The notes under the pieces were generated by a model. The model was not told where the DNA came from, ran no database searches, and worked only from the letters and a program-made list of their open reading frames with translations. From Heterostelium album PN500 (Eukaryota; Evosea; Eumycetozoa; Acytosteliales; Acytosteliaceae): a stretch of 64,000 nucleotides of DNA. The stretch lies in the NCBI RefSeq assembly GCF_000004825.1, contig NW_008805102.1, positions 89,835 through 153,834 on the forward strand, in the 5' to 3' direction. A program made the translations under genes and the position numbers. Shown piece after piece: positions 4,647 to 8,761 of the stretch. Each line of letters begins with the position of its first letter. Positions within the stretch are counted from its first letter, which is position 1.

Positions 4647-6416
4647 TTAGTTATTTCCGGAAATCGATGAATGTGGTTGTGCAGATGAACCTGATCCTGA
4701 TGAGGACATGATGGTAGCTGGTGCGTGTGGTTGTGCGCTCGATACACTGGTGGTATGTGAAGAGGTTGGTCTGTGTGGCATGTTATAACGACCGGAGACC
4801 GATGAATGTGGTTGTGCACTCGATGATGACGATGATGATGACGAGGTGATAGTTGCTGGTGCGTGTGGTTGTGCGCTTGATACACTGGTTGTGTGTGTAA
4901 CAGTTGGTCTGTGAGGCATAGCCGAGGAGGCACCTGAACCTGAACCCGAAGCCGATCCAGATCCAGATCCTGGACCTGAGGAACCGGATGATCCTGGACC
5001 TGAAGAGGCGTGGCTATTGTCTGAACCGGATCCCGATCCTGATCCTGGACCAGAGCTTGCGGCAGTACCGAGCATAGTGTTGAACTTGACTTCTCCTGAA
5101 CCAGCTGAACCACCTAACATTGTGTTAAATTGTGGTTCTTTTGGTTTGACTTCTCCTGAACCTGCTGAACCTCCAAGCATTGTGTTGAATTTTGGCTCAT
5201 TTGGTTTGACTTCACCTGATCCGGCTGAACCTCCAAGCATTGTGTTAAATTTTGGCTCATTTGGTTTGACTTCTCCTGATCCGGCTGAACCACCCAACAT
5301 TGTGTTGAATTGTGGCTCCTTTGGTTTGGCTTCACCTGATCCGGCTGAACCACCGAGCATGGTTTGGAATTCTGGCTCTCTGTGGGTGGTAGATCCTGAA
5401 CCTGATCCACTTCCTGAACCAGATGCTGAACCGCTTGAAGCAGAGGTGGATGATCCTGAACCAGATGAGGCTGACGATCCACTACCCGATCCAGAGGCAG
5501 AGGTAGTAGCTGATCCGGAACCAGATGATGCTGATGATGATCCACTTCCTGAGGAGGTGGTACCAGATCCGGAACCTGATGATGCTGATGATGATCCAGA
5601 ACCAGAGGTACTACCAGAACCTGAGCTGGTGGAACCCGATGAACTTGAACCGCTTGATGCTGATCCGTCAAAGTAATCGAGATCGACAGAGACACCACAT
5701 TGGTTGGTGTTACCAACGTATTGCTTCATCTCTGGGTTGTTCCAACCACCGTATTGGTAGGATTTGGTATCGGTGAAGGCAGCTACACCATCGTAGTGAG
5801 CGTACCACTGTGGATAGGAAGAGAGTGATGTGAGTGAACCGACGGTTTCTGGCCATTCACCGAGCGATGAGTAAACACCGACTCTGACACCCAAAGAAGC
5901 GGCGGTCTGGACAGCCTCGACAACGAAGGCAGCGTTGGCACTGGTGCTTCCCCAACAACCGTTACATTGTTCAACATCGATCCAAAGAGTACCAAAATTG
6001 GTACCACTTTGTTTCAAATGACTAACAATCTCTTGGATGACATTGGACGATGGTGAATTACCGGAACATTGATTACATAAAAATGCATACTAAAATTATT
6101 TATAACATGAAAAATAAAATAGAAAAAAAAAACAATTAGTTATTTATTTCTAAATCTATATCTAAAACTACAAACTTACAAGATCAATAGTTTGGAAACC
6201 TGCACTTTGAGCAGCTTGGATGGCACCAACGACACCATTGTTCAAACCGTATCCACCTGCCCACACTTGGATGATTACACGTTGATTCTTCTGAGCTAGA
6301 CAAGACCATTGTGAACTTGTGATTCTGGTTGAAGTTGAAGATGAAACATCAATACCTAAATCTGCATTTGCAATTGCCAAAACTGTCAAAAACAATAAAC
6401 AAATAAATAATTTCAT
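4647..6416 (-). CDS. Secreted GH25 lysozyme with Ser/Gly-rich repetitive C-terminus
   Basis: Two exons, 6416-6180 and 6089-4647 (intron 6179-6090, GTAAG...TTTTAG, phase 0), 559 aa. Residues 1-18 are a signal peptide ('FICLLFLTVLAIANA'). Residues 19 to about 215 form a glycoside hydrolase 25 domain: 'LGIDVSS' carries the first catalytic Asp, 'LWIDVEQCNGCW' the D-x-E pair, and 'VGVYSSLGEW' and 'WYAHYDG' are further barrel strands. GH25 enzymes cleave the MurNAc-GlcNAc bond of peptidoglycan, which suits a phagotroph digesting bacteria. The tail has a long SG/SAS linker, five imperfect 20-residue units around 'FNTMLGGSAGSGE', and two copies of a block containing 'SSAQPHAPATI'. The tail is probably an O-glycosylated stalk (inference). 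Export or delivery to phagosomes is likely. Confidence 0.88.
4660..4920. repeat. Two-copy approx. 130-bp coding duplication
   Basis: Two adjacent blocks at the 3' end of the lysozyme gene share 'gatgaatgtggttgtgc', 'agctggtgcgtgtggttgtg' (tagctggtgc/ttgctggtgc), 'gatacactgg' and 'gttggtctgtg'. They encode two Pro/His/Ser segments around 'SSAQPHAPATI'. The copies have diverged in the Ser-run between them. Confidence 0.75.
5070..5390. repeat. Tandem 60-bp coding repeat, about five copies
   Basis: Within the lysozyme gene, a 60-bp unit recurs in register at about 5116, 5176, 5236, 5296 and 5356, with a partial copy at about 5070. On the + strand each unit begins near 'cattgtgtt' and ends near 'cctgctgaacc'. 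Copies differ by a few third-position changes (tct/tca, cct/ccg), so the array is young but not freshly amplified. Confidence 0.85.
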
Positions 6417-7574: not shown

Positions 7575-8761
7575 ATGACAAAAGGAATCTACTTGCACCT
7601 CCCAATCGATATTGACACTTCGAAAAGCTATGAAATACCAACTATTGAGAATCAAAAGGATGTATTGATTGAGGCTATTCTCAGTGCTCCACAAGAGCCA
7701 GAGGAAGCAGCCAACCAACAACCACAACAGAGCAATGTTAACTCATTTTCCTTTGGTAACTTTGCTAATAACAATAATAGAAAAGCAACTCAAGAAATGA
7801 AAGCAGAGGAAAAAGTAAGTTGGTTATTACTATTTCAAATTGAAATCATTTCAATATTAATCATTATCATCATTATTATTATTATTTTTAGATTATGAAA
7901 GCTCAACACTTCAATTGGATTGATATCATGTCTTTTTCACATAACGTTGCATCCGCAGCTGGATCGAAATCTTTAAGATCTAAAAGAATCAAAATGGTTA
8001 ATGGCGATGAGGAAGCTCATGTTGGTGAGTTTACTTGCACCAAGTTTGTTTCTCATGCCACACCATCGTTGAACTACTTGTGTTTGAGACGTGAGATCAT
8101 TCCACATGCTATAATCCGTATCTTGGACAAGATCCAAAAGGATGAGGATGCCTTCAAGATCAACATCATCGAATATGAGTTGCAATATGTGAGAGTCTCA
8201 CACGTCTCGGTCAGTGGAGGAACCGGTGGTAAACCAGTGGAGACTCTCTCACTCTCGCCGCGCGTCATCAAGACAAAGTACATCGACTTGAATTTCCACA
8301 CCAGGGAATTCGACACCTATCAAGTCTACCATTGGGACACCATCACCAACACCGGTTCCAAGACGATATTCTCGCAGGGCAGCGCAACCAAATCGCTCTT
8401 GGAGTACGCCAAGAAGCGTTTGATGATCGATCTCGACTCGCAGGATCCATCGATGATCGCTCTCATCAAGGAACTCGGTCTGGTCACCGACTACGAGTTG
8501 CCCTCGGAAAAGCTAGAGTCACACACCATCAAGATTTCCGTCTCGAAAGAACCGATCACATTCAAGCGAATCACCGTGAAATCACTCACCATTAAATCAG
8601 TGATTGCCGCCATCGCAGAGAAACTCGCTATTCCCGCCCAATCAATCACCAACCTCTTCAGCATTGACAACAACAACACCGAAATCGAAACAGACGAAGA
8701 TCTCCAAGGAACAACATCAATTCTATTCAAACAAGCCGGTGGAAAGTTCTATGGTTATTAA
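7575..8761 (+). CDS. Hcp-like (type VI secretion tube-family) protein with ubiquitin-like C-terminus
   Basis: Two exons, 7575-7814 and 7892-8761 (GTAAGT...TTTTAG, phase 0), 369 aa. No signal peptide. The core resembles Hcp1-family beta barrels: 'GIYLHLPIDI' as first strand, 'FNWIDIMSFSHNVAS' (Hcp I-x-V-x-x-W-x-W region), 'FTCTKFVSHATPSLN' (FTK...SPxL), and above all 'VSHVSVSGGTGGKPVETLSL', which follows the Hcp pattern V-S-x-V-S-x-G-G-x-G-G...E-x-x-x-L, then 'IKTKYI'. Asn/Gln-rich insertions interrupt the N-terminal part, as is usual for dictyostelid genes. The last 90 residues look like a beta-grasp fold ('TIKISVSKEPITFKRITV', helix 'SVIAAIAEKLAIP', 'TSILFKQAGG'). Bacterial Hcp stacks as hexamers in the T6SS tube; no such machine is known in amoebae, so the role is unknown. 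Codon use and intron show it is a resident nuclear gene. Confidence 0.72.

Follow-up and report, generated by a model that had tools for sequence, protein, structure and literature searches.

A two-exon gene at positions 7575-8761 (+) of a 64,000-nucleotide stretch of the Heterostelium album PN500 genome (G000:C37:89835-153834, hereafter the window; genome size 32.9 Mb) encodes a protein of 369 amino acids, identical to NCBI protein PPL_11717, in which an Hcp domain, known as a core part of bacterial type VI secretion systems (T6SS), is followed by a ubiquitin-like tail. PPL_11717 is one member of a dictyostelid family, not a single odd gene. Almost certainly, a dictyostelid ancestor gained an Hcp3-type gene from a proteobacterium, which was joined to the ubiquitin-like domain and later duplicated: the identification is based on homology, predicted fold, a single clade present in both dictyostelid orders and the lack of matches to three other T6SS families, furthermore on ratios of nonsynonymous to synonymous substitution rates (dN/dS) below 1 between copies, the kept lumen residues and the changed stacking loop. 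The best explanation overall, a domesticated Hcp acting as a single, non-stacking cargo ring, is put forward tentatively. Statements cited to PMC13323088, PMC4650826, PMC5874247 and PMC3482391 refer to excerpts of these papers.

Identity and fold of the Hcp domain

The Hcp fold that had been read from the sequence in the initial annotation was borne out by profile and structure: PPL_11717 matched Pfam T6SS_HCP (PF05638) with 51.7 bits (curated cut-off 23.5) over residues 83-210 (7898-8281, +), and the two-sheet Hcp barrel is present in the predicted structure, the fold continuing to residue 236 (8359). The outcomes named there as speaking against Hcp (no Hcp match, a predicted fold unlike the Hcp barrel, a eukaryotic family matching better) were not encountered; the next Pfam match after Hcp was a sub-threshold match of the tail (E 0.011). 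All nine members of alignment A1 matched T6SS_HCP at E up to 1, and the six matches in the H. album genome all exceeded the cut-off. The score against NCBIfam TIGR03344 (T6SS tube protein TssD), 21.6 bits, was below the curated cut-off of 58.9, and the protein is thus not assigned to that subfamily.

According to splicing and predicted secondary structure, exon 1 (7575-7814, +; residues 1-80) contributes Hcp strand 1 (residues 4-8), a helix (residues 24-36) and then an Asn/Gln-rich insert that is disordered in the prediction (predicted local distance difference test, pLDDT, below 50 at residues 42-73). The helix, part of the insert between strands 1 and 2, carries an ENQKD motif (E25-D29; 7647-7661) that is invariant in 9/9 family members, was found in none of the 16 bacterial rows compared and marks the dictyostelid family. 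Confidence of the two predicted models was moderate (68.5 and 72.5).

Phylogeny and origin

A tree calculated from 66 rows placed all 14 dictyostelid Hcp domains in one clade (100/100) that grouped, apart from other Hcp types, with Hcp3-type proteins (99/96), a name used here for the closest bacterial relatives of Hcp3 from the Pseudomonas aeruginosa H3-T6SS (PDB 9qpe); the program warned of long branches (Cavenderia fasciculata, outgroups) and of unsettled bootstrap values in this tree. The bacterial relatives had been selected from the best 120 of 187 matches, 41 being kept (at least 150 amino acids, less than 86% mutual identity). A second tree, calculated without C. fasciculata and five outgroup rows (two outgroup rows were kept), united 13/13 dictyostelid rows in one clade (100/100), a position inside the bacterial group not being separated from one beside it (p-AU, approximately unbiased test, 0.195). 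The branching order within the clade departs from the species order, which calls for old duplications or an artefact as explanation; this point and the program warnings count against the best explanation. The simplest reading is one transfer predating the split of the dictyostelid orders. Horizontal transfer from bacteria followed by domestication, as envisaged in the initial annotation, is supported by the grouping with Hcp3-type proteins at 99/96 and by the spread over both dictyostelid orders.

A scan of genome contigs with bacterial Hcps gave 156 relatives, 80 of which were kept; nearly all of these came from Pseudomonas, as did the query, so that the scan is hardly informative about the donor. 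Scanning the genome contigs with the family patterns yielded 57 pattern matches and no relative. A viral carrier was rejected, as none of the 28 pattern matches obtained with these patterns in a scan of viral contigs was a relative. In P. aeruginosa PA7, a bacterial relative is surrounded by open reading frames (ORFs) resembling T6SS parts; their names are presumed from our own reading of these ORFs. The entries for two bacterial proteins, P0008 and P0009, describe fusions of a sheath protein (VipB) with an Hcp3-type protein; since the matching parts in PA7 (L029) are two adjacent ORFs, the fusions may be products of assembly or gene calling.

Lumen loop and stacking loop

In Hcp3, S29, S31, E56, T60, G121 and K123 are recurring effector contacts in the lumen, and exchange of G121 for tryptophan, alone or together with K123, ends effector binding (PMC13323088). 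PPL_11717 keeps all six positions; its lumen loop VSVSGGTGGKPVETLS (8204-8251, +; residues 185-200) contains G192 and K194, which match Hcp3 G121 and K123. Across the family, identity at the six positions (in the above order) was found in 14, 14, 11, 12, 14 and 14 of 14 dictyostelid proteins, a mean of 13.2/14 compared with 4.6 over 151 aligned positions (p 2e-4) and with 7.8 over the 64 positions invariant in bacteria (p 0.013).

The loop L2,3, by which rings stack in bacteria, is rewritten at the corresponding position of PPL_11717 (7955-8017, +; residues 102-122) and comprises 5-14 residues in the 13 relatives. It is 16 residues long in 40/41 bacterial rows and altered in length in 14/14 dictyostelid rows (5 residues in seven, 7-12 in five, 14 and 21 in the remaining two); 12 loop positions invariant in bacteria are kept in 0 to 5 of the 14 dictyostelid proteins. 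The dictyostelid rows thus do not have the stacking loop expected of a T6SS tube protein. Mutants of this loop in Burkholderia pseudomallei Hcp1 still form hexamers and are unable to stack (PMC4650826), and antibacterial effectors are no longer delivered when the loop is deleted from Hcp1 and Hcp2B of Escherichia coli (PMC5874247).

Linker and ubiquitin-like tail

The Hcp domain is followed by a linker (8360-8515, +; residues 237-288) with two short helices, predicted at low confidence, and by the ubiquitin-like domain (8516-8758, +; residues 289-369), for which a beta-grasp fold was predicted, in line with the earlier claim of such a C-terminal domain; for the second predicted model, no tail match was among the 50 structure entries listed. 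The C-terminal di-glycine of conjugated modifiers is not conserved: GG occurs in 1/14 proteins, followed by KFYGY. The protein ends with GKFYGY (8741-8758, +), and GKF-x-G-Y/H is present in 11/14 family proteins.

Distribution and copy number in dictyostelids

Two protein searches covering 5.8 billion sequences (9 and 16 proteins) returned relatives of the same architecture solely from dictyostelids, namely H. album, Polysphondylium violaceum, Dictyostelium discoideum (DDB_G0288943 in AX4, the orthologue, and further isolates), D. citrinum, D. dimigraforme, D. firmibasis and C. fasciculata, which span both orders, Acytosteliales and Dictyosteliales; the sheath-Hcp proteins P0008 and P0009 were the sole non-dictyostelid proteins. 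No bacterial Hcp with a ubiquitin-like tail was found in these searches, which require shared five-residue words and similar length and may therefore miss distant relatives.

The H. album genome contains at least seven loci on four contigs: besides the PPL_11717 locus there are four on C2, three of which lie within 17 kb, and single loci on C24 and C10. Between five of the copies dN/dS was 0.17-0.49 in 9/10 pairs (one pair was saturated), with synonymous divergence (dS) as low as 0.09 among H. album copies and of 0.09-0.30 among the three clustered C2 copies. Judged from these substitution rates, the copies include recent tandem duplicates, apparently under constraint.

The copies on C10 (L015, G000:C10:59517-60293) and C24 (L014, G000:C24:1205106-1205834) are divergent and retain the Hcp core and the tail in part; the intron of the latter seems to be placed differently from that of PPL_11717. 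Both were excluded from the trees and from the 14-protein counts, the C24 tail being included in alignment A5. The NCBI model PPL_00180 (L002, 973-2043, −) departs from the plain open frame just upstream of the C-terminal motif (the frame reads DGKFVGY), and PPL_00318 (L005, 970-2043, −) extends about 10 residues beyond the stop of the frame; both models may be mis-spliced. Three (L098, L103, L106) of 14 Hcp loci from four genomes were removed by a motif filter.

Gene structure and genomic setting

Exon 1 is separated by a 77-base GT..AG intron (7815-7891, +) from exon 2 (7892-8761, +; residues 81-369 plus stop codon). The nuclear, intron-bearing copy with an Asn-rich insert proposed at the outset is supported by the spliced product, which equals PPL_11717, by the amoeba-like neighbours and by the seven loci. 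The neighbourhood was judged by eye, Asn or Gln runs, a common trait of these amoebae, being present in several long ORFs. One downstream ORF resembles a bZIP protein by the same visual inspection. In the ORF at 4647-6017 (−), a DVEQCNGCWG stretch precedes long Ser/Gly/Ala repeats; on visual inspection, this ORF is reminiscent of amoeba GH25 lysozymes.

Proposed function and alternative explanations

As a possible mechanism, in which we place slightly less confidence than in the overall explanation, the amoeba protein would form a single Hcp-like hexamer that has lost stacking into tubes and shuts around a protein cargo, as Hcp3 protomers do around the effector Tce1; the ubiquitin-like domains, kept outside the ring by the flexible linker, would draw in a partner from the ubiquitin system or bind to one another. 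As cargo, either an injected bacterial protein or one of the amoeba's own proteins is conceivable; the former could apply because the H3-T6SS is described as mainly anti-eukaryotic (PMC13323088). Given this description and the stepwise assembly of Hcp3 around its cargo (PMC13323088), an intracellular effector trap is a natural, though unproven, idea: a non-stacking ring would grip injected T6SS effectors via the loading contacts, and the tails would hand the captured protein to the clearance machinery. We consider this special form unlikely. An ordinary chaperone ring is also compatible with this evidence, as is an adaptor if the ring contacts were lost.

Several points weigh against the cargo ring. 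The structure predictions are single chains and contain no hexamer, and the 14 dictyostelid proteins of the lumen and loop counts include several close relatives and do not represent independent events. The six contact residues may have been conserved for folding or ring contacts and not for cargo. The lumen loop is degenerate in two of the seven H. album copies, those on C10 and C24, and partly changed in PPL_00318, hence it is not needed by every copy. The family carries the insert between strands 1 and 2; as strand 2 contributes to the Hcp3 protomer interface (PMC13323088), the ring may be altered. Furthermore, a ring is argued to accommodate at most one extended Hcp when the extension lies in the lumen (PMC13323088), and therefore six tails must lie outside the ring.

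Among the alternatives, a housekeeping ring that acts on endogenous amoeba proteins as scaffold or chaperone, unrelated to bacterial attack, is rather improbable, if only a little less credible than the mechanism outlined: the family is old, occurs in both dictyostelid orders and has dN/dS below 1, and Hcp has been described as chaperone of its cargo (PMC13323088, PMC4650826), whereas the many H. album copies, recent tandem ones (dS 0.09-0.30) included, are more in keeping with an arms-race or dosage gene than with a fixed scaffold. The altered surfaces near the ring contacts (strand 1-2 insert, rewritten loop L2,3) and the moderate model confidence would also suit a monomeric adaptor, i.e. 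an Hcp barrel that forms no ring and whose kept loop merely supports the fold; the stronger conservation of the lumen contacts compared with other bacterially invariant residues (p 0.013) speaks against this, and we regard it as unlikely to the same degree as the trap. Quite improbable is a role as decoy or cap, in which the protein would co-assemble with Hcp arriving from bacteria and tag it for removal via the ubiquitin-like domain: this would agree with the Hcp subclass, shared with the H3 system to which an anti-eukaryotic role is ascribed, and with known Hcp heterohexamers (9vne and 9vnd among the structure matches; also mentioned in PMC13323088), but identity to bacterial Hcp3-type proteins is only 34-47%.

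For a eukaryotic contractile injection machine with PPL_11717 as its tube, the tube subunit is present and nothing else. In six-frame searches of the H. album genome that ignored introns, VipB, Phage_GPD (VgrG-type) and PAAR had no match at E up to 1, the same profiles having matched in E. coli as positive control; the sheath, spike and PAAR partners of a tube were thus not found, and the stacking loop is rewritten, by which this machine is ruled out for practical purposes. Contamination by bacteria and a mis-joined gene model are equally negligible: no evidence in their favour was found, and they are opposed by the intron, the Asn-rich insert, the amoeba-like neighbours, the seven loci on four contigs and the orthologues in other species.

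The family suggests that amoebae took over a bacterial part for their own use. If the cargo-ring explanation and the transfer hold, a structural part of a weapon, not a toxin or immunity gene, would have passed into a predator of bacteria and been retained in both orders of dictyostelids. As D. discoideum AX4 has an orthologue, rings, cargo and protection against bacteria are addressable in a standard model. Among the literature matches listed, from a search that most subscription papers lie outside, no paper described Hcp as a long-kept eukaryotic or dictyostelid gene family; PMC3482391 treats polymorphic-toxin parts in amoebozoans, with no mention of an amoeba Hcp in the excerpts. Pfam already labels members of the dictyostelid family T6SS_HCP, and the domain is therefore known in databases, if not in print.

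Comparison with known systems

The tail shows a weak likeness to the Grainyhead C-terminal domain (Pfam GRHL1_C; residues 303-350, 16.0 bits), which was rejected as its identity because the score lies under the cut-off of 27 bits and only 2/9 family members match; GRHL1_C had no other match place in the H. album genome, and a CP2 search, without match in any control genome, carries no weight on this question. Compared with ubiquitin-fold proteins (ubiquitin, ISG15, NEDD8, Hub1, CIDE domains), the dictyostelid tail is weakly similar in sequence, has no free di-glycine end and is fused to Hcp. With Hcp3 of the P. aeruginosa H3-T6SS and Hcp3-type relatives, PPL_11717 has in common the barrel fold and the VSVSGGxGGKPVETLS lumen loop, at 34-47% identity over the aligned part. 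Unlike Hcp3, it is eukaryotic and intron-bearing, contains the strand 1-2 insert and a rewritten stacking loop, adds a linker and a ubiquitin-like tail, and resides in a genome without VipB, Phage_GPD or PAAR match. In carrying an extra domain fused to the Hcp domain it resembles Hcp-ET, a bacterial group in which Hcp is extended C-terminally by a toxin (PMC13323088); the extension is a toxin domain in the latter and a ubiquitin-like fold in the dictyostelid family.
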